DNA of 35,920 nt from Acidobacteriota bacterium (GTDB lineage: Bacteria > Acidobacteriota > Thermoanaerobaculia > Thermoanaerobaculales > Sulfomarinibacteraceae), in contig WGCW01000043.1 of NCBI GenBank assembly GCA_015493585.1, forward strand, positions 1 through 35,920. The letters run 5' to 3'. A program made the translations under genes and the position numbers. The notes under the pieces were generated by a model. It saw only the letters and a program-made list of their open reading frames with translations. It was not told the DNA's origin and ran no database searches. This document shows, in pieces, positions 17,035-27,588 of the stretch. Numbering within the stretch: position 1 is the stretch's first letter; each line of letters starts with the position of its first letter.

Positions 17035-17116
17035 CGAAGAGGTTCGCGCTTTCTCCCAAAGGGCACACGCCGCGGAGGGGGAAGGTATTGCTTGATCAAA
17101 ACCTCAGGAAAGAATC

Positions 17117-17144
17117 TTGATTCTGAATTCAGAACTGATATTCT
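17117..17144 (+). promoter_or_regulatory. tetR promoter with embedded palindromic operator
   Basis: TTGATT (17117-17122) and TATTCT (17139-17144) are 16 bases apart. The perfect 14-base palindrome TTCTGAATTCAGAA (17121-17134) overlaps the -35 end and fills most of the spacer. This is the usual geometry for self-repression by a TetR dimer. The predicted transcript starts near 17151, 15 bases before the ATG at 17166. Confidence 0.65.
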
Positions 17145-17165: not shown

Positions 17166-17774
17166 ATGACGACGCGCCGGGCCCGTGAACGGGAGCTGCG
17201 GCGGCAGGTGATCCTTGAGGCTGCGGAACGGATCTTTGGGAGCCGTCCGTACCACGAAGCGACGATGCAGGCGATCGCGGCGGCATCGGAGCTCGGGATG
17301 CAGGGCCTCTACGATCAATTTCCCTCGAAACAAGCGTTGTACGAGGAGGTCATCGTGGTCCGGGCGCGCGGGTACCAGCGGCGGATGGATCAGGCGCTGG
17401 CCGGGCTCGATGAGCCGGTGGAACAGCTCGCGGCGATCGCGCGTGTGCGCGCGGAGCTCTTCGCCGAAGCGCCGGCCTTTCTTCCCGTTTTTCTGGCCGA
17501 GAAGATTCGCCTCGAATGGGAGACGGGATCACGGATGAGCCGCCGGATCCGGCGGGTGATGCGGGAAGAGAGAGCAAGGCTGCTGAGCATCGTTGAGGAT
17601 GGCATCTCCAGGGGGATGCTGCGTGAGGAAGACGCGGGGTTTCTCGCCAATCTCTTTACAGACGCTGTCACGGCCTCCTTGCACCTCTTCAAAAAACATC
17701 CGGAGGAGGGGATCAAAGCATGTACCGACCGGGCGATGCAGGCTTTTCTCAACGGTGCCGCAGCCTCGTCTTAA
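17166..17774 (+). CDS. TetR/AcrR family transcriptional regulator
   Basis: Expected to repress the efflux genes that follow and to be released by a ligand. It has 202 aa. The N-terminal HTH (residues about 8-55) reads RRQVILEAAERIFGSRPYHEATMQAIAAASELGMQGLYDQFPSKQALY and is a clear TetR DNA-binding domain. The remainder is an all-helical ligand-binding and dimerisation domain (FAEAPAFLPVFLAEKIRLEWE, LFTDAVTASLHLFKKHPEEG). The start is supported by GAGG eight bases upstream and by the promoter-operator. The 3' end overlaps the TolC-type gene by 55 bases, so regulator and exporter are translated from one message. Confidence 0.93.
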   Translation: MTTRRARERELRRQVILEAAERIFGSRPYHEATMQAIAAASELGMQGLYDQFPSKQALYEEVIVVRARGYQRRMDQALAGLDEPVEQLAAIARVRAELFAEAPAFLPVFLAEKIRLEWETGSRMSRRIRRVMREERARLLSIVEDGISRGMLREEDAGFLANLFTDAVTASLHLFKKHPEEGIKACTDRAMQAFLNGAAASS

Positions 17775-19099
17775 TGGCGCTCCTGCTTGCGGGAACGGCT
17801 CTGGCAGGGCAGGTGCACCCGGCGCAGGCGGCTGGTGGAGGGACGGTGACACTCTCACAAGCTCTGAAGGCCGTCGTCTCGAGCTCTCATGCTGCGAAGG
17901 TCGCGAAGCTCGATGCGGCTGAGGCTCGTTCCCGTACCCGGGCCGTCCGTTCACGTGAGCTCCCCTCGGTCGGGCTGACCGGCGGGTTCGTGGATCGGGA
18001 CAGTGAGCTGGTCGCCGTTTTCGGCCCGTTCACTGCGCCATTGGGCGGTGATACCTACTGGCAGTACCAGGTGACGGCTACATATCTCCTCTGGGACGGA
18101 GGTGTCCGGCGATCGTCGATTGAGGCCTCACGTGCTGGGGAACGTGTTGCCGAAAGGGCCGGGGCGGCAGCGGTGACGCGGACAGAGATCGAAGGGCTTG
18201 ATGCCTTTCTGCGGGCGGTGGGGGCCCGCGCACGAGGCCAGGCCGTTGCGAAGAGGATTGATGCGGTCAAGGCACATCTGGCCGAGGTGAAGGATCTCTT
18301 CTCCCAGGGCATGGTCGCGCGGAACGATCTGCTTGAAACGCAGGTACGACTGCGCCAGGTTGAGGATGAAAGCTCGGCCGCAGGGGATGACGAGTCCGTG
18401 GCGACACGGACGTTGGCACGTTTGATGGGACGGGATCCGTCCCGGCACCTCCAGTTACCCGGATCGCTCGGGCTTCCGCCTCCGCTGCGATGGACGAAAA
18501 AACAGCTTCTCGAAGCGGCCATCAAGGAGAGCCCGGAGATCCGGGTCGTTGAGGCCCGGCTGGAGGCGGCGGAGAAGCGTGCCGAGGTCAGCCGTCGTGA
18601 CGGGATGCCGCAGGTCTTGACCGAGTTCTCGCACACGTACGAAGAGAATCCGTACCTGCTCTATCCAAACGCCAACGTGCTGTTCCTCGGGGTTCGATGG
18701 AACGTTTTTGATGGTGGGGCACGGGCTGCAAAAAGACGGATGGCGGGCTTGGAAACGGCGAAGGCGCGCCAGGACATGATCGAGGCAAAGCGGCGGGTGC
18801 GCAATCAGCTCGATGCCGCCTACCGTGCCTACCGGAGAGCATTGCGGGAGGCTCGAACCGCCGCGCAGAACGTCGCGTCAGCCGAAGAAAATTTGCGGAT
18901 CGAGGAGGATCAGTACAAGGTGGGGATGGTCCGGACGACGGACGTGCTCGATGCCGAGGCGCTGCTTGCGGCTAGCCGTTTCGAGCTCATCGCTCGCCAC
19001 GAGAGCGCCTACGCGAGGCAGGGACGCCTGCTGCTCTTGGCAGGACGTGATCTGGCGGCTTTCTACCGGGGTGGGAAGGGTGAGGAGGAAGGGTTATGA
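17720..19099 (+). CDS. TolC family outer-membrane efflux protein
   Basis: Outer-membrane channel for the MFS pump encoded downstream. I chose ATG 17720 over 17774, because GGAGGAGGGG lies nine bases upstream. Only the longer form also has a charged signal-peptide start (SQRCRSLVLMALLLAGTALA). The protein has 459 aa. Two OEP repeats of long helices are visible: TLSQALKAVVSSSHAAKVAKLDAAEARSRTR near 40-75 and EIRVVEARLEAAEKRAEVSRRDG near 270-295. Each is followed by a beta-strand hairpin (LPSVGLTGGFV; QVLTEFSHTYEENPYLL). No lipobox is present, unlike the second outer-membrane factor in the block. The stop codon overlaps the HlyD-type start as ATGA. Confidence 0.9.
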   Translation: MYRPGDAGFSQRCRSLVLMALLLAGTALAGQVHPAQAAGGGTVTLSQALKAVVSSSHAAKVAKLDAAEARSRTRAVRSRELPSVGLTGGFVDRDSELVAVFGPFTAPLGGDTYWQYQVTATYLLWDGGVRRSSIEASRAGERVAERAGAAAVTRTEIEGLDAFLRAVGARARGQAVAKRIDAVKAHLAEVKDLFSQGMVARNDLLETQVRLRQVEDESSAAGDDESVATRTLARLMGRDPSRHLQLPGSLGLPPPLRWTKKQLLEAAIKESPEIRVVEARLEAAEKRAEVSRRDGMPQVLTEFSHTYEENPYLLYPNANVLFLGVRWNVFDGGARAAKRRMAGLETAKARQDMIEAKRRVRNQLDAAYRAYRRALREARTAAQNVASAEENLRIEEDQYKVGMVRTTDVLDAEALLAASRFELIARHESAYARQGRLLLLAGRDLAAFYRGGKGEEEGL

Positions 19100-20127
19100 A
19101 GAAATGGATCGGTCTCGGCGTCATCCTCGTCTTCACCGGCGCTATGGCCGTGGCATGGCGGGTCTACTGGAAGCATGAGCAGCTCTATCCAAGCACTGGG
19201 GATGCGTACGTTGCCGGAGATATCTATCAGGTGTCTGCGCGCATTCCGGGAACGATCCTCAAGCTGGCGGTTGATGAGAACCAGGTCATCGCGCGCGGCG
19301 CCATCATTGCCGAGTTGGATCCCCGGGATATGGACCGGGCGGTCAATCGGGCGAAGGCCGCGCTCGACCGGGCCAAAGCCGTTCCGGCGACGATTCGCGC
19401 GAGAATCGCACAGGCCCGGGCGGAGGTGCAGGCGGCGGCGAGCGATCTGCGGTTGAAAAAGACGGATCTGGCCCGGTTTACCGAGCTCGTGGCGAAGAGC
19501 TCGATTCCGAAACGAACGTACGATCAGGCGGTTGCGGCTGAGGCTGTCGCCGCGGCCCGGGAGGTGGCAGCGCAAAAGGCTCTCTCCGCCGCGCAGGCGC
19601 AGCTCGTCGTCAGCAGGCGCGCCGTTGAGATCGCACGGCAGGCCCTGATGGAGGCTGAGCTGAAGCGCTCGTACTGCACCATCCGGTCCCCCGTTGCAGG
19701 GGTCGTCAGCAAGAAGACGGCTCACGTAGGACAGGTGATCGCACCGGGCCAGCCGCTCTGCGCCGTGGTGCCACTCGAAGGAGAGCACGTCTGGATCGAG
19801 GCGAACTTCAAGGAAACACAGCTCGCCAGGATTCATCCCGGCCAGCCGGTCCGGTTCCATACCGACGTCGAGCCGGGGAAGGAATATCGCGGGACCGTCG
19901 AGAGCCTCAGCGCGGGCACGGGGGCGGCGTTCTCGTTGCTGCCTCCGGAAAACGCGACGGGCAATTGGGTCAAGATCGTTCAGAGGTTGCCCGTGAGGAT
20001 CGCCGTGGACAAAAGCTCGGATGCGGGCCGCTCACTCCGGCTCGGCCTGTCGGTCCATGTGACTATCGATACGACTGGGGGCGAGCATCCTTTCGCCAGC
20101 GGGGCAGGCAGCTCAAACGGCAGATAG
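19096..20127 (+). CDS. HlyD/EmrA-type membrane fusion protein
   Basis: A periplasmic adaptor linking the MFS pump to the TolC-type channel. It has 343 aa. One N-terminal membrane helix (WIGLGVILVFTGAMAVAW) anchors it. The first half-lipoyl segment follows (GDAYVAGDIYQVSARIPGTI, VDENQVIARGAIIAELDPRD). A coiled-coil hairpin spans about 95-190, rich in Ala, Arg and Glu. The second lipoyl half is IRSPVAGVVSKKTAHVGQVI near 195, followed by the beta-barrel (VWIEANFKETQLARIHPGQPV) near 230-250. It is coupled to the TolC-type gene by a four-base overlap and followed after 22 bases by the MFS gene. The name emrA fits by architecture, but I leave the symbol blank. Confidence 0.92.
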   Translation: MKKWIGLGVILVFTGAMAVAWRVYWKHEQLYPSTGDAYVAGDIYQVSARIPGTILKLAVDENQVIARGAIIAELDPRDMDRAVNRAKAALDRAKAVPATIRARIAQARAEVQAAASDLRLKKTDLARFTELVAKSSIPKRTYDQAVAAEAVAAAREVAAQKALSAAQAQLVVSRRAVEIARQALMEAELKRSYCTIRSPVAGVVSKKTAHVGQVIAPGQPLCAVVPLEGEHVWIEANFKETQLARIHPGQPVRFHTDVEPGKEYRGTVESLSAGTGAAFSLLPPENATGNWVKIVQRLPVRIAVDKSSDAGRSLRLGLSVHVTIDTTGGEHPFASGAGSSNGR

Positions 20128-20149: not shown

Positions 20150-21700
20150 GTGAGCACAGGCACCGGCGGCAAGTACCTGATCGCGTTTACGGCGATGATC
20201 GGGACGCTGATGGAAGTGGTGGACACATCCGTCGCGAACGTGTCGCTCCCCCACATGCAGGGGACGTTCTCAGCTGGTGTCGATGAGATCACATGGGTTT
20301 TGACCTCGTACCTCGTGGCCAACGCGATCATCCTGCCGGTCACTGGGTGGCTGGGAAACTACTTCGGGCGCAAGCGGTTCTACATCACGTGCCTGGCGCT
20401 GTTTACACTGGCTTCCCTTGGGTCCGGTGCGGCGCCAACCCTCTGGTTCCTGATCCTGATGCGCGTCGTCCAGGGTTTCGCGGGCGGGGCGATGGTACCG
20501 ATGTCCCAAGCAATCATATTGGAATCGTTTCCGAAGGAGGAACATGGGAAGGCGATGGCGCTCTTTGGCGTGGGAGTTGTCTTCGGACCAATCATCGGGC
20601 CGACGCTCGGCGGGTACATCACCGACACGATGACGTGGCGCTGGGTCTTCTACATCAACCTGCCGGTTGGCATCCTGGGAATCCTGATGGCCCTCTTCAT
20701 CATCAGCGATCCTCCATATCTGCGCCGCCCTGAAGGGCGTGTTGACGGATTGAGCTTCCTGTTCATTGCGATTGGGCTTGGAGCGCTTGAGGTCATGCTC
20801 AATCGTGGGCAGCGGTACGACTGGTTTCATAGCAACTTCATCATTCTGTTCGCCTTGATGGCGGCATGTGGGCTTGCCCTCTTCGTGTGGCGATCACTGA
20901 CGGCCGAGCATCCGCTCGTGGATCTGCGCCTCTTCGGCAACAAGGAGTTCGCCAGCGGGACGTTCCTGATGTTCCTGCTTGGCTTTGGGCTCTATGGGTC
21001 GTTCACGATGTTGCCGCTGTATGCTCAACAGCTGATGGGTTATACGGCCACGTGGGCGGGCCTCGTGCTGTCTCCCGGCGGTCTGGCGTCGCTGGTGGCC
21101 ATGGCGTTCGTCGGCTTTCTAGTGGGAAAAGTCGACACGCGGCTCCTCGTACTGATCGGCGCGATCTTCAATATCGCCGCCCTGTTCCTCCTGCATCTGC
21201 TCAACCTCCACGTGGATTTCTTTTTCCTCGCGCTTTCGAGAATCTTGCAGGGTTTCGGCTTGGGCTTCCTCTTTGTACCGATCACCGTCGCGGCTTTCGT
21301 GCGGTTAACGCCCCAACAAACGGGGCAAGGAACGGGGCTCTTTAACCTCCTCAGGAACGAGGGAGGTTCGGTTGGCATTGCGATTGCCGCAACCGTGCTT
21401 GGAAGGCGGGCACAGTTTCACCAGCATCACCTCATCGAGCATGTGACACCGTACACACTCCTGCTGCACCAGCGGTTGACGGCGATCGGGCACTACGTGT
21501 TTGGCGCCGGCGGGTACGATCCGTTCTCGTCGTCACGAGCGGGCGAGGTGCTGATGTACGGTATGCTCCGCAAGCAGGCGGCGGCGATGGCGTACATCGA
21601 TGTCTTTTGGATGCTGATGCTGGCGTTCGTGATCTTTGTGCCCTTTATTTTCCTGCTGTCTGGACGGACGGGCCACACCGTTCCGGAAGAAATGGCATGA
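20150..21700 (+). CDS. DHA2-type MFS multidrug transporter (EmrB/QacA-like)
   Basis: A drug:H+ antiporter with 14 predicted membrane helices, 516 aa. Translation starts at GTG 20150, preceded by GGGGAGGGTGAGG. Helix 1 carries the motif VDTSVANVSLPHMQGTF (family LDTTIVNVALP). NYFGRKRFY is the loop 2-3 motif A. The antiporter motif C region reads GVVFGPIIGPTLGGYITD, followed by TWRWVFYINLPVG, typical of the EmrB subfamily. Substrates cannot be predicted. With the preceding TolC-type and HlyD-type genes it forms a complete tripartite MFS system. Its stop lies in ATGATG, where a short ORF begins. Confidence 0.94.
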   Translation: MSTGTGGKYLIAFTAMIGTLMEVVDTSVANVSLPHMQGTFSAGVDEITWVLTSYLVANAIILPVTGWLGNYFGRKRFYITCLALFTLASLGSGAAPTLWFLILMRVVQGFAGGAMVPMSQAIILESFPKEEHGKAMALFGVGVVFGPIIGPTLGGYITDTMTWRWVFYINLPVGILGILMALFIISDPPYLRRPEGRVDGLSFLFIAIGLGALEVMLNRGQRYDWFHSNFIILFALMAACGLALFVWRSLTAEHPLVDLRLFGNKEFASGTFLMFLLGFGLYGSFTMLPLYAQQLMGYTATWAGLVLSPGGLASLVAMAFVGFLVGKVDTRLLVLIGAIFNIAALFLLHLLNLHVDFFFLALSRILQGFGLGFLFVPITVAAFVRLTPQQTGQGTGLFNLLRNEGGSVGIAIAATVLGRRAQFHQHHLIEHVTPYTLLLHQRLTAIGHYVFGAGGYDPFSSSRAGEVLMYGMLRKQAAAMAYIDVFWMLMLAFVIFVPFIFLLSGRTGHTVPEEMA

Positions 21701-21780
21701 TGCAGCGTGTAACCGCGGTGCGGCGGGCGGTGTGGATGACCGGGATGCTTGTAAGGAGGAAACTTCCATGGCTGACATGA
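21697..21780 (+). CDS. Possible 27-codon coupling ORF between the two pump systems
   Basis: ATG 21697 overlaps the MFS stop as ATGA and opens a frame for 27 residues (MMQRVTAVRRAVWMTGMLVR..). It reads across the Shine-Dalgarno of the next gene and stops 12 bases inside it. A GGAAG lies nine bases upstream. No family is recognised. It may only be chance, or a translational coupler that keeps ribosomes moving from the MFS genes to the RND genes. Confidence 0.2.
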   Translation: MMQRVTAVRRAVWMTGMLVRRKLPWLT

Positions 21781-22964
21781 CAATGAAGCGGGGCGCCTCG
21801 AACGGGTCACGGCGGTGTGGCCGGTGGGTCATGGTGATGGCGATCGCAGTGGCCACGGTAATGGGTGGATGTGGGGCTCCGAAGCGCCCGGGACACGCAG
21901 GTGGTCCGATGGGTCAAGGCGGGCCACCTCCCCGTGTCGTTGTGGCCCCTGTCACTCTTCAGGATGTCAATCCGCCCGAACGGTACGTTGGTCATGTCGA
22001 GGCGATCGAGGCGGTGGATCTGCGCGCCCGCGTCGAAGGCTTTCTGGAGAAGGTGTCATTTGACGAGGGGGCCTTCGTGCATGCGGGAGAGCTCCTCTAC
22101 ACCATCGAACAGGCACCGTACGAGGCGAAGGTTGCGGAAGCCGAAGCACGTGTGGCCGCAGCTCAGGCGGCGGTGACCCGGACGGCCAAGTACCTCCACC
22201 GCGTCGAATCGGTCAAGGCGGGGGGCGTCTCCGCGACCGATCTCGAGAATGCGACGGCGGATGCTGCACGTGCTCGTGCTGACCTGAAAGACGCGAAGGC
22301 CGCATTGCGGCTCGCGAAGCTCGATCTGAGCTATACGACGATCACCGCGCCGATCAGCGGCCGGATCGGAACGACGGCATACACGAAGGGGAACCTCGTC
22401 GGCCCATCGTCTGGGGCGTTGGACCGGATCGTTCAGCTCGATCCGATTCGTGTTGTGTATTCGCTCAATGAGAACGATTTACCCGCGATTCAGGCGGCTC
22501 TCCGCGACGCACGGCAGGGCCGGAAGAACCCGATGTTGTCGCCGAGGCTCGAGCTGCCAGATGGCACCATGTACCCCACAACTGGCACGATTGAATACGT
22601 TGATAATCACGTGGATCCGGCAACGGGGACCGTAGCCGTGCGCGTGATCTTTCGCAACCCGAACGGGATCCTCCTGCCGGGACAGTACACGACAGTCTTG
22701 GTCAGCCGGACGGCGCCTCGTTTGATGCCGGCCGTGCCGCAGCGAGCGATCGGTGAAGATCATCGTGGCAGCTACGTGTTGGCCGTTGGCCCGGATCATC
22801 GTGTGGACGTACGGCGGGTGCGGCTCGGACCGGTGATCGGGACGATGCAGGCCGTCACGAATGGCGTGTCCAAGGGGGACCTGATCATCGTGCAGGGGAT
22901 GCAGAAGGTTCGGCCCGGCCAGACCGTCGCTGCGGTTCCGGCCGGCGCATCCAAGGGGCGGTAA
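21768..22964 (+). CDS. RND efflux periplasmic adaptor lipoprotein (MexA/AcrA family)
   Basis: A periplasmic adaptor joining the RND pump to its outer-membrane factor. I chose ATG 21768 over the ORF-track start, because AAGGAGGAAA lies directly upstream. The protein is 398 aa. A lipoprotein signal ends at VMGGCG, with the lipidated Cys near residue 36. First lipoyl half: YVGHVEAIEAVDLRARVEGFLEKVSFDEGAFVH. A coiled-coil hairpin spans about 125-190 (EARVAAAQAAVTRTAKYLHR). Second lipoyl half: YTTITAPISGRIGTTAYTKGNLV. The beta-barrel region contains GTIEYVDNHVDPATGTVAVR near 275. It differs from the HlyD-type adaptor upstream, which is held by a membrane helix. Four bases separate it from the pump gene. 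Confidence 0.93.
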   Translation: MADMTMKRGASNGSRRCGRWVMVMAIAVATVMGGCGAPKRPGHAGGPMGQGGPPPRVVVAPVTLQDVNPPERYVGHVEAIEAVDLRARVEGFLEKVSFDEGAFVHAGELLYTIEQAPYEAKVAEAEARVAAAQAAVTRTAKYLHRVESVKAGGVSATDLENATADAARARADLKDAKAALRLAKLDLSYTTITAPISGRIGTTAYTKGNLVGPSSGALDRIVQLDPIRVVYSLNENDLPAIQAALRDARQGRKNPMLSPRLELPDGTMYPTTGTIEYVDNHVDPATGTVAVRVIFRNPNGILLPGQYTTVLVSRTAPRLMPAVPQRAIGEDHRGSYVLAVGPDHRVDVRRVRLGPVIGTMQAVTNGVSKGDLIIVQGMQKVRPGQTVAAVPAGASKGR

Positions 22965-22967
22965 GCG

Positions 22968-25900
22968 ATGTTCTCGCGCATCTTCATCGAGCGTCCGCGC
23001 CTGGCGATGGTGATCTCAATCATCATCACCTTGGCGGGATTGATCGCTCTTGAGAACATCCCCGTGGCTCAGTATCCGCAGATCACGCCTCCAGAGATCA
23101 CCGTCAATGCGTTCTATCCCGGCGCCAACGCAAAGGTCGTCGCCGACAGCGTTGCGGCCCCGATCGAGGAGGAGGTCAACGGCGCCGACCGGATGCTCTA
23201 CATGTCTTCCTCGTCATCGAATAACGGGTCTTATTCCCTAAGCGTCACCTTCGCCATTGGGAGCAATCCTGACATCGACCAGGTCAACGTGCAGAACAGA
23301 GTGCAGCTGGCGATTCCAAAGTTGCCCGAAGAGGTGCGCAGGGAAGGCATCAGTGTCCGGAAGCGCTCGTCGAACATGATGGCGGTCATCAGCTTCTACT
23401 CTCCACACCATACCCGCGACAAACTTTTCCTCAGCAACTACGTGAGCCGGAACATCAAAGATGATCTGGTCCGGCTTGCTGGCGTGAGCGACGCGCGGAT
23501 CTTCGGGGAGTTCCAGTACAGCATGCGTGTCTGGGTCAACCCAGACCGGCTAGCCGCGCTTGGGTTGACGGTGGGTGATGTTGCCAACGCCATCCGTCAG
23601 CAGAACGCGCTGGCAGCCGTTGGCTCGATTGGAACGACACCCGCCCAAAAAGGCCAGGAGGTCGCCTTCACAGTCCGTTCGAAGGGCCGTTTGAAGAGTG
23701 TCGATGAGTTTAAAAATATCGTCGTCCGGACCAATGGGGCTGGAGGGACGTTGCGGCTGGGGGATGTCGCGCGGGTTGAGCTCGGTGCGCGGAGCTATGG
23801 GAGTCAATCAATTCTCAATGGGAAAACCGCTCTCGGTATGGCCGTGTACAGGATGACTGGGGCAAATGCCTTGGAAACCATGCGCCAGGTTCGGGCCGAG
23901 CTCAAACGGCTCGCGCCGCACATGCCGAAAGACGTTGCGTACCAGGTCGTGTACGACAGCACGACGTACGTTCGGGCAGCGATTCACGAGATTGAGTACA
24001 CCCTCGTGCTGACCTTCTTTCTCGTCCTGCTCGTCAACTTTGTGTTTCTCCAGGATTGGCGGGCAACACTGGTGCCGACGGTTACGATTCCAGTCGCATT
24101 GATCGGCACATTCGCCGTTCTGCTCGCCCTTGGGTACAGCGCCAATACGATCTCTCTCTTTGCGCTCGTCATGGCCATCGGGCTCGTTGTCGATGATGCC
24201 ATCGTCGTCGTCGAAAACGTGCACCGGATCATGGATGAGGAACACCTCGATGCGAAATCGGCAACGATCAAGGCGATGGGTCAGGTGACGGGTCCGATTG
24301 TTTCGACAACGCTTGTTCTCCTTGCGGTCTTCATCCCGGTCGGTTTTCTGCCAGGCATCGCCGGCCAGCTGTACAAGCAGTTTGCCGTCACGATCAGCAC
24401 ATCAGTCGTGTTGTCGGCGATCAACGCCTTGACGTTGAGCCCGGCATTGTGTGCGCTCCTGCTGAAGCCGAGGAAAGCGGCGCAACACGGTCCGCTCGGA
24501 TGGTTTAATCGCGCTCTTGATGCGTCCCGAAAGGGGTACGTTGCCGGTGCGGGCTGGCTGATCCGCCGGCTGGCTGTGTTTGGGATCGTCATGGTGCTGG
24601 TCTGGCTTTCAGCCTACGTCAGCTTCAAGACGTTACCGACGAGTTTTCTGCCAAATGAGGACCAGGGCGTGTTCTTCCTCAACCTCCAGCTTCCGGAAGA
24701 CGCGACGCTGGCGCGAACGAACCAGGTGATGCAGCAGGTCACCCAACAAGTCATGGCCGTTCCGGGTGTTCGTTCATTCCTTGGTGTCAGTGGTTTCAGC
24801 ATGCTGAGCGGGGTGGCCGAGAATGTCGGCCTAGGCGTTGCCACGCTCAAGCCATGGGATGAGCGAAAGAGCTCCAACCTCCACCTCAACGCGATTCTGG
24901 GCCGGGTTCAGATGGAGCTTGCACAGATTCCCGCGGCGAACATCTTTGCCTTTGCGCCACCGCCGATTTTGGGGCTCGGGACCGTGGGCGGTTTCGATTT
25001 CAGACTTCAGGCGCTGCGGGACCAGAGCCCGCAAGAACTGGCCCGGGTTGCCCGGACCATGATGATCGTGGCCAATCAGGACCCGGCCTTGCGGGGCGTG
25101 TTTACGACGTACACGGCCGACACGCCACAGCTCTACGTCAACCTGGACCGGACCAAAGCGGAGACGCTGGGAATTCCTGTCAGTGATCTCTACCAGACGT
25201 TGGGCGCGAATCTCGGATCGATGTACGTCAACGACTTCAACCTGTACGGACGGGTCTACCACGTGACGGTTCAGGACGAAGCCCGTTTTAGGAGCACACC
25301 GGACGACATCCGCCGCCTCTACGTCCGGAGCCGGACGGGCGCCATGGTTCGAGTCGGGAACCTCGCCACACTTTCGACCATCCTCGGCCCCTCCGTCATC
25401 AACCGCTACAACCAGTTTGAAAGTGCTCAGATCAACGGCAACGCGGCGCCGGGCCACAGCTCGGGGGCAGCAATGGCAGCCATGGAGCGGCTCGCCAAGA
25501 AGGTGCTGCCACCGGGATATAGCTTCGACTGGTCGAGTATTTCGTTCCAGGAGCGCAAATCCAGTGGTCAGGTTGGGCTGCTTTTCGCACTCGCATTGCT
25601 CTTTGTCTACCTGTTCCTGGTGGCCCAGTATGAGAGCTGGAACATGCCGCTGGCGATCGTACTCTACATCCCAGTGGCGACCCTCGGCGCCCTGATCGGC
25701 CTCTGGATCACGGGGATCAGCCTCAGTATTTATGCGCAGATCGGTCTGGTGTTGCTCGTCGGCCTGGCGAGTAAGAACGCCATTCTGATCGTTGAGTTTG
25801 CCAAGGATCAAAGGACTGCAGGCCTGACCGCAGGAGAAGCAGCTGTCGAAGGCGCACGGATCCGGTTCAGGCCTGTGTTGATGACGGCGTTTACATTCAT

Positions 25901-26102
25901 CCTTGGTGTCGCACCGATGGTCGTTGCAACCGGGGCTGGTGCCAATAGCCGGCGTCACATCGGGACAGCCGTGTTTGCTGGCATGTTGCTCGCGACGGTT
26001 TTCGGGATCTTCCTGGTTCCGCCGCTGTACTACGTCTTCGAATCATTAAGGGAGAGGGGGCATGCGTGGCGCATGCGGCGGAGGCACGGCGATGCGGAGT
26101 AA
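22968..26102 (+). CDS. RND multidrug efflux permease (HAE1 family, AcrB/MexB-like)
   Basis: An inner-membrane proton antiporter that captures drugs from the periplasm. It has 1044 aa, matching AcrB (1049) closely. The typical opening is seen (FIERPRLAMVISIIITLAGLIALENIPVAQYPQITPP). The proton-relay Asp pair is present in GLVVDDAIVVVENV near 405, and the relay Lys in GLASKNAILIVEF near 935. The porter-domain sequence NALAAVGSIGTTPAQKGQE also fits HAE1 pumps, as does FLPNEDQG at the start of the second half. No disruption is seen. Its 3' end overlaps the outer-membrane-factor gene. Substrate range is not predictable. Confidence 0.97.
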   Translation: MFSRIFIERPRLAMVISIIITLAGLIALENIPVAQYPQITPPEITVNAFYPGANAKVVADSVAAPIEEEVNGADRMLYMSSSSSNNGSYSLSVTFAIGSNPDIDQVNVQNRVQLAIPKLPEEVRREGISVRKRSSNMMAVISFYSPHHTRDKLFLSNYVSRNIKDDLVRLAGVSDARIFGEFQYSMRVWVNPDRLAALGLTVGDVANAIRQQNALAAVGSIGTTPAQKGQEVAFTVRSKGRLKSVDEFKNIVVRTNGAGGTLRLGDVARVELGARSYGSQSILNGKTALGMAVYRMTGANALETMRQVRAELKRLAPHMPKDVAYQVVYDSTTYVRAAIHEIEYTLVLTFFLVLLVNFVFLQDWRATLVPTVTIPVALIGTFAVLLALGYSANTISLFALVMAIGLVVDDAIVVVENVHRIMDEEHLDAKSATIKAMGQVTGPIVSTTLVLLAVFIPVGFLPGIAGQLYKQFAVTISTSVVLSAINALTLSPALCALLLKPRKAAQHGPLGWFNRALDASRKGYVAGAGWLIRRLAVFGIVMVLVWLSAYVSFKTLPTSFLPNEDQGVFFLNLQLPEDATLARTNQVMQQVTQQVMAVPGVRSFLGVSGFSMLSGVAENVGLGVATLKPWDERKSSNLHLNAILGRVQMELAQIPAANIFAFAPPPILGLGTVGGFDFRLQALRDQSPQELARVARTMMIVANQDPALRGVFTTYTADTPQLYVNLDRTKAETLGIPVSDLYQTLGANLGSMYVNDFNLYGRVYHVTVQDEARFRSTPDDIRRLYVRSRTGAMVRVGNLATLSTILGPSVINRYNQFESAQINGNAAPGHSSGAAMAAMERLAKKVLPPGYSFDWSSISFQERKSSGQVGLLFALALLFVYLFLVAQYESWNMPLAIVLYIPVATLGALIGLWITGISLSIYAQIGLVLLVGLASKNAILIVEFAKDQRTAGLTAGEAAVEGARIRFRPVLMTAFTFILGVAPMVVATGAGANSRRHIGTAVFAGMLLATVFGIFLVPPLYYVFESLRERGHAWRMRRRHGDAE

Positions 26103-27588
26103 CAGTCAGGGGTCGCAGATGGACCAAATGGCGTACGGCGCGATGGGAGTCATGAGGCGGCTTGGTGTGGTCCTGGCGATGGGAACACTGCTTGCCGGTT
26201 GCGTCACTGTGGGGCCCGATTATCACGCACCGAAGGTCAAAAGCCCGAAGGCGTGGCACGCACAGCTCGGTGAAGGGCTGACCAAGACGCGCGTAGATTC
26301 GCGTCAGCTCGCACACTGGTGGACGGTACTGGGCGATCCGGAGCTCACGCATCTGGAAAGCCGGGCCGTGCAGGACAACCTCGACTTCAAACAAGCGCTG
26401 GCACGGGTCCGGGAGGCACGAGCTGCTCTCGGCATCGAAAAGGCTGGGCTCTATCCGGCGCTCGACAGCGGCGGGCAGGCGGTCAAGCAACGGGGAAGCG
26501 AGAATGCAGGTATGGCAGGTGAAGGCCGGCTGTACAACCTGGGATTCGATGCAGGGTGGGAGATCGATATCTTTGGGGGTGTCCGGCGTTCAATCGAGGC
26601 AGCGGCGGCTGAGTTGGGTGCCATGCACGACGATCTCGCAGACGTCTTGGTCAGTTTGGAGGCCGAAGTTGCGCGCAACTACGTAGAAGTCCGGACCTTC
26701 CAGGCCAGGCTTGCAGCGGCTCGTGCGAATCTCGCCGCCCAGCAGAAGAGCTATGACCTCAATCTGTCCCGGTTCAAGTCAGGGCTCATTGATCAATTGG
26801 CAGTCGACCAATCGTTGCAGCTCCTGGAAAGTACGCGAGCATTGATCCCCGCATTGAAGACAGGGCTCGCCCAGGCCAAGAATCGTTTGGCGATGCTGCT
26901 TGGCCGCTCGCCGGGAAGCCTCGACGCTGAGCTGGATCCGGAGCGCCCCCTGCCTATGCCCCCGGTGACGGTGGCCGTCGGAATTCCAGCAGACATGCTC
27001 CGGCGGCGTCCCGACGTGCGCCGGGCCGAGCGGGAGCTCGCCGCTCAGACAGCCAGGATCGGTGTGGCAAAAGCGGAGCTCTATCCAAAACTGCGGCTGA
27101 CCGGCAGCATCGGGCTCGAATCGGTTTCGACCGGCAATCTCTGGCAATGGGCGAGCCGGACGTACCGGATTGGCCCGGGCTTCTCGTGGCCGATTTTCCA
27201 CGCGGGCGCCATCCGCCGGAACATCGATGTCCAAACCGAACGCCAGAAGCAGGCGTTGCTGGGTTACGAGAAGGCCGTGCTGGCCGCGCAGGTGGATACG
27301 GAAAACGCGCTGGTCGCCTATGCCAAGGCGCAGCGGCGGCGGGATGCGCTTGCGCGGGCCGAGGCAGCGGCACGCCGGACGCTTGACCTGGCCGAGGATC
27401 AATACAAGGCCGGATTGATCGATTACACGACCGTGCTCGATGCACAACGGACGCTGGAATCCCTTCAGGATGGCCTCGCCCAGAGCCGTGGCGAAGTCGT
27501 GCTCGACCTGGTGCGTCTCTACAAAGCCCTCGGCGGTGGCTGGAGCTCGATGGCAGTCAAGGGTAAAGCGCCGGCCAAACATCCATGA
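26092..27588 (+). CDS. RND efflux outer-membrane lipoprotein (NodT/OprM family)
   Basis: Outer-membrane channel partner of the RND pump. Several in-frame ATGs exist. I chose 26092 because CGGAGG sits seven bases upstream, which gives 498 aa and an 11-base overlap with the pump gene. ATG 26152 (MRRLGVVLAMGTLLAGC) is a good alternative that gives a more standard signal. The lipobox LLAGC is followed by the family signature VTVGPDYHAP. Repeat 1 has LESRAVQDNLDFKQALARVREARAALGIEKAGLYPAL. GVRRSIEAAAAELG is the mid-segment motif, and IPADMLRRRPDVRRAERELAAQTARIGVAKAELYPKL opens repeat 2. QYKAGLIDYTTVLDAQRTL is the C-terminal OEP signature. It ends the efflux block and is followed by a repeat-filled gap. 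Confidence 0.94.
   Translation: MRSNSQGSQMDQMAYGAMGVMRRLGVVLAMGTLLAGCVTVGPDYHAPKVKSPKAWHAQLGEGLTKTRVDSRQLAHWWTVLGDPELTHLESRAVQDNLDFKQALARVREARAALGIEKAGLYPALDSGGQAVKQRGSENAGMAGEGRLYNLGFDAGWEIDIFGGVRRSIEAAAAELGAMHDDLADVLVSLEAEVARNYVEVRTFQARLAAARANLAAQQKSYDLNLSRFKSGLIDQLAVDQSLQLLESTRALIPALKTGLAQAKNRLAMLLGRSPGSLDAELDPERPLPMPPVTVAVGIPADMLRRRPDVRRAERELAAQTARIGVAKAELYPKLRLTGSIGLESVSTGNLWQWASRTYRIGPGFSWPIFHAGAIRRNIDVQTERQKQALLGYEKAVLAAQVDTENALVAYAKAQRRRDALARAEAAARRTLDLAEDQYKAGLIDYTTVLDAQRTLESLQDGLAQSRGEVVLDLVRLYKALGGGWSSMAVKGKAPAKHP

Follow-up and report, generated by a model that had tools for sequence, protein, structure and literature searches.

Paired palindromic boxes upstream of a TetR-family efflux regulator gene as its probable tandem operator in Acidobacteriota

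TetR-family repressors bind DNA as dimers. In this family, DarR binds ATACT(N)4AGTAT as a pair of dimers (PMC10636190), and EilR of Enterobacter lignolyticus, an efflux repressor, has two operators, eilO1-eilO2, with eilO1 embedded in native promoter regions; engineered Jungle Express promoters, in which one operator occupies the spacer and a second the start site, are tightly repressed (PMC6127294). Pump operons encoding an outer-membrane efflux protein (OEP), EmrA and EmrB under a local repressor have been described as emrR-emrCAB in Chromobacterium and Stenotrophomonas (PMC6249546). We analysed a 35,920-nucleotide stretch of DNA from an Acidobacteriota bacterium (the window), in which a TetR-family gene preceded by two palindromic boxes heads a series of efflux genes. 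As in DarR, which is among the closest folds to this regulator, a 14-bp palindrome of the 5-N4-5 type would serve each dimer, but the second dimer of DarR sits partly on the first site, the whole operator being 20 bp, the half-site sequence is different, and DarR binds c-di-AMP (PMC10636190). EilR is likewise a TetR-family efflux regulator with two operator sites; the eilO palindromes, however, measure 24 bp, lie 36 bp apart and stand between divergent genes, whereas here 14-bp boxes at 20 bp precede a co-directional operon. The repressor of emrR-emrCAB belongs to the MarR family, whereas the regulator here has a TetR_N domain. A literature search for the box motif, or for an Acidobacteria TetR-Emr operator, found no matching description for the phylum. 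The kind of system is already known, and it is the layout that is unusually well conserved.

The features of the site, by position in the window, are as follows.

17111 to 17124, unstranded: putative operator box 1, AGAATcttgATTCT, AGAAT-cttg-ATTCT, a perfect 5-N4-5 palindrome
17125 to 17130, unstranded: linker GAATTC between the boxes, 6 bp
17131 to 17144, unstranded: putative operator box 2, AGAACtgatATTCT, AGAAC-tgat-ATTCT, 20 bp from box 1, centre to centre
17121 to 17134, unstranded: TTCTGAATTCAGAA, comprising the inner half of box 1, the linker and the inner half of box 2
17117 to 17144, plus strand: possible promoter TTGATT-N16-TATTCT, with TG upstream of the -10
17166 to 17774, plus strand: gene for a TetR-family regulator of 202 aa

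The regulator is predicted to adopt a TetR fold with a mean pLDDT of 90. Its N-terminal helix-turn-helix matched TetR_N (PF00440) with 48.9 bits against a cut-off of 24, and the fold is all-helical, the listed Foldseek matches being TetR structures, with TM values reaching 0.78 of the query. By sequence, the nearest solved relative was 6azh (E 1.4e-17), for which a literature search found no paper. FadR-type TetR regulators of fatty-acid metabolism (6azh, 3whb, 3vpr) were also among the best fold matches, but they are about 16-21% identical over the fold and the present regulator sits in an efflux operon.

The original prediction had singled out TTCTGAATTCAGAA as a perfect palindrome lying inside the spacer between TTGATT and TATTCT, 32 bases before the tetR ATG. 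The palindrome exists and is perfect, and both hexamers are where they were placed; two of its bases are shared with TTGATT, which puts it partly outside the spacer, and although it does lie upstream of the ATG at 17166, the separation is 31 bases. It is its own sole match in the window at up to 2 mismatches (0.04 expected). Since about two perfect 14-bp palindromes are expected per 36 kb by arithmetic (4^-7 per position), its symmetry alone is unremarkable, and conservation is the remarkable part. A longer inverted repeat with two 17-nt arms (76%) was found at 17111-17144 and corresponds to the paired boxes. The four half-sites stand in a fixed arrangement, with their centres 9-11-9 bp apart, and together with the 20-bp box spacing this would suit a QacR/DarR-like pair of dimers.

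Conservation within the class was assessed by scanning 149 genomes with the pattern RGAAYN4RTTCYN7GAAYN4RTTC. It occurred in four of them, at one place each and always before a close orthologue of this TetR, and these four were exactly the genomes that hold such an orthologue; one further genome of the class had a weak TetR match (E 6.8e-22) and lacked the box pair. The reversed control pattern gave 1 match in total in the same scan. In the genome under study the paired boxes occur once, and a scan of it for the single box AGAAYN4RTTCT, with four occurrences (two of them at this site) against three in the control, found no wider regulon. In three genomes of the same family the TetR orthologues (81, 55 and 53% identity) all had two boxes 20 bp apart upstream, joined by the linkers ATTTTT, ATTTTC and AGATTC, as against GAATTC in the window. 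On ungapped comparison with the same-genus relative, 30/37 bases matched at the boxes, 22/72 upstream and 9/21 downstream.

The paired boxes were also recovered outside the class. A scan of GTDB genomes provided 25 loci, including the three close relatives, MAGs and several Geothrix species (class Holophagae), and each was scored out of 20 box positions at the 20-bp spacing, with a score of at least 14 taken as a match. All but one of these relatives matched (24/25, the exception being L044 with 13), whereas the upstream regions of 26 non-orthologous TetR genes, of which L005 and L067 are one place, scored 9-13. When spacings of 14-33 bp were compared, 20 bp gave the highest mean best score (16.2 vs 11.6-14.2). 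Orthologues from further families (L115, L117, L118, L113 and G200), found by a phylum-wide profile search, also carry the box pair, and a clear pair was absent in the same search upstream of the distant family members L116, L119 and L120. The G200 locus has a 20/20 box pair, a regulator of 20% identity and the order tetR-oep-emrA-emrB at 23-29% identity; its regulator was already within the search profile and is not independent there, but the pattern scan found G200 independently. Seven other pattern matches in the phylum, L068 and L072-L077, were set aside as probable chance: tblastn found no tetR orthologue at them (in L075 only an SDR), and no tetR was present among the ORFs of L068, the one locus of this group whose ORFs were read.

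Three loci, L056, L057 and L060, matched at 20 bp in a shifted register and are better read at 27 bp. Here a 7-bp duplication, GGAATCT/GGAATTT, has widened the box spacing from 20 to 27 bp, which is a natural spacing variant.

A palindromic site at its own promoter, conserved together with the gene, is the pattern of a TetR autorepressor. Because the element accompanies the orthologues of this regulator throughout the phylum, placed at their promoters, and the other genomes of the class lack it, the autorepression put forward in the original prediction appears well supported at the level of sequence. The DNA itself shows the boxes with their constant spacing, how well they are conserved, that they go with this TetR clade, and how the genes are arranged; we infer that the protein binds and represses there, how many dimers it uses, what induces release, and that all seven genes are transcribed together. 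We propose, with a probability of about 0.82, that the TetR encoded just downstream uses 17111-17144 as a tandem operator for autorepression of tetR-OEP-emrA-emrB, extended in this genus by an RND set. Each of the two 14-bp boxes (5-N4-5, consensus RGAATnnnnATTCY) would accept one dimer, and as 20 bp is about two helical turns, the two dimers would lie on the same DNA face and cover the promoter. Bound repressor would block RNA polymerase at tetR-oep-emrA-emrB and, in this genus, at acrA-acrB-oep2 as well, until a toxic compound, presumably a pump substrate, binds the repressor and releases it from the DNA.

A different reading would place one dimer on the central palindrome ATTCTnnnnnnAGAAT, with half-site centres 11 bp apart and the outer half-sites acting as accessory or promoter sequence. 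This agrees with the inner half-sites being the best-conserved bases (among the outer ones, position 2 is G in 17/27 sequences and position 34 is mixed), with the degenerate left outer half in some Geothrix (GTAAT/ATAAT), and with the ability of tested TetR repressors to use overlapping palindromes (PMC10636190). The better conservation of the inner half-sites also makes it uncertain that two dimers would bind equally. Across 27 sequences, counted as independent even though many of the Geothrix loci are closely related, there is hardly any variation in the box letters, A3, T12, C13, G22, A23 and T32 being present in 27/27, and the N4 and most of the linker vary. From the outside in, the pairs of the central palindrome match in 23, 27, 27, 8, 5, 13 and 22 of the 27, the last being the AT-rich middle pair, so that those perfecting the palindrome in the linker match in only 8, 5 and 13. 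All 7 pairs are found in the window only, the GAATTC centre being symmetric in no other listed relative, and even distant families (L115, L117, L118, L114) retain the outer half-sites at the constant 20-bp phase. A single central dimer is hence unlikely. As the boxes are kept and the central pairs are not, selection appears to act on the boxes rather than on the central palindrome. We therefore rejected the 14-bp palindrome as the conserved unit, which is RGAAYN4ATTCY twice, 20 bp apart; where the same palindrome had been expected before orthologous tetR genes, it is the paired boxes that are retained. The original prediction would accordingly be correct about the location and the type of function, but mistaken about the operator unit, and its promoter is uncertain.

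That promoter consists of TTGATT at 17117-17122 and TATTCT at 17139-17144, 16 bp apart, with TGa before TATTCT as in an extended -10, and it is kept in the same-genus relative only. A consensus scan of the site found no promoter above the cut-off (8 of 12 hexamer matches) and no terminator. No strong -35 was found in the window. Most relatives have TTGACA/G a few bases before box 1 and a -10 inside the linker (TAAATT, TATTAT, TAAAAT, CATAAT). In L117 this reads TTGACA-17-TAAAAT, 11 of 12, and, as read from the sequence, L118 has TTGACA-17-TATTAT and L049 TTGACA-17-CATAAT. In relatives with such a TTGAC-type promoter, the spacer is taken up by box 1, and box 2 lies past the -10, in the start-site region. 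The genus of the window may have lost the usual -35, its place being taken by TTGATT-16-TATTCT, which lies 20 bp downstream and is common to both genus members. On either promoter reading, the boxes as mapped cover the promoter.

The overlap of boxes and promoter in nearly all relatives also invites the view that the conserved bases are promoter hexamers and their spacing only, with no repressor site. We regard this as very improbable, since each box is palindromic, unlike promoters, and since box 1 in the spacer and box 2 past the -10 occupy regions of little promoter constraint; moreover the pair is absent upstream of non-orthologous tetR genes. Gram-positive LexA boxes, GAAC-N4-GTTC, have the same shape as the boxes here, and one match of the phylum scan, GAACAGGTGTTC, looks LexA-like, so the boxes might belong to another regulator such as LexA. 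No such box occurs in the 250-300 bp upstream of this genome's lexA, for which reason a LexA box was rejected, and the genome has no second copy of the pair, which tracks the TetR orthologue; assignment to another regulator is scarcely credible.

The genes that the tandem operator would control follow tetR on the same strand.

17720 to 19099, plus strand: outer-membrane efflux protein (TolC/EmrC-like), overlapping tetR by 55 bp
19096 to 20127, plus strand: EmrA-type membrane-fusion protein
20150 to 21700, plus strand: EmrB-type DHA2 transporter
21762 to 22964, plus strand: RND adaptor (AcrA/MexE-like)
22968 to 26102, plus strand: RND permease (AcrB-like)
26062 to 27588, plus strand: second outer-membrane efflux protein (NodT/OprM-like)

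The EmrB protein matched TIGR00711 with 447 bits (cut-off 230), as in EmrAB/EmrCAB pumps. For EmrA the best family was TIGR00998, its 252.6 bits lying below the curated cut-off of 390.8. Beyond the tetR-OEP overlap, the junctions are in order a 4 bp overlap, 22 bp, 61 bp, 3 bp and an overlap, and these gaps and overlaps would be compatible with a single transcript that carries seven genes, tetR among them. Two weak terminator-like matches at the end of emrB make co-transcription of the RND part uncertain. The suggested number of up to seven controlled genes is right only if tetR is counted along with the six co-directional genes, and the first four alone are conserved outside the genus.

In most relatives tetR-OEP-EmrA-EmrB forms a conserved block. 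Among the loci examined, the RND set behind emrB (21762-27588) was present in this genus only, being shared with G001, whose contig ends inside acrB, and by gene order this complete RND pump set is a genus-level addition to the operon. A different RND system lies behind the same regulator and operator in L048-L050, and no Emr genes were seen behind the regulator in L054, L061 and L065. Since the pump genes differ behind the same regulator and operator, the operator follows the regulator and not the pump. It is possible, and we advance it tentatively, that an ancient double operator, held at a 20-bp phase around the -10 in several families, spread over at least two classes of Acidobacteriota, has been kept with one TetR clade while the pump was changed (Emr, RND or lost), and that in this genus one operator controls two complete tripartite pumps, one of the MFS and one of the RND type, as a single unit. 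With this site, an operator motif, a regulon and a promoter layout become open to test for a TetR-regulated efflux operon of Acidobacteriota; cultured Geothrix strains carry the paired boxes. The pair could serve as a sensor part, and its fixed 20-bp phase may bear on cooperativity.

At one locus, L043 (G005), box 2 overlaps the likely GTG start of tetR, and the transcript may be leaderless. A second palindrome family, ATTAATCAATCGTTTGATT and similar, was seen upstream of the Geothrix tetR (L052, L056-L065), toward an adjacent RND cluster in divergent orientation. In L061 and L065 a divergent TetR gene was read there, and these palindromes are probably the operator of that cluster's own regulator. 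Palindromes of the TGAATGAnnnTTCATTCA type, which we take to resemble the FadR operator type, lie about 44-51 bp upstream of the start of the TetR match at five loci with non-orthologous tetR genes (L009, L017, L020, L022, L028).
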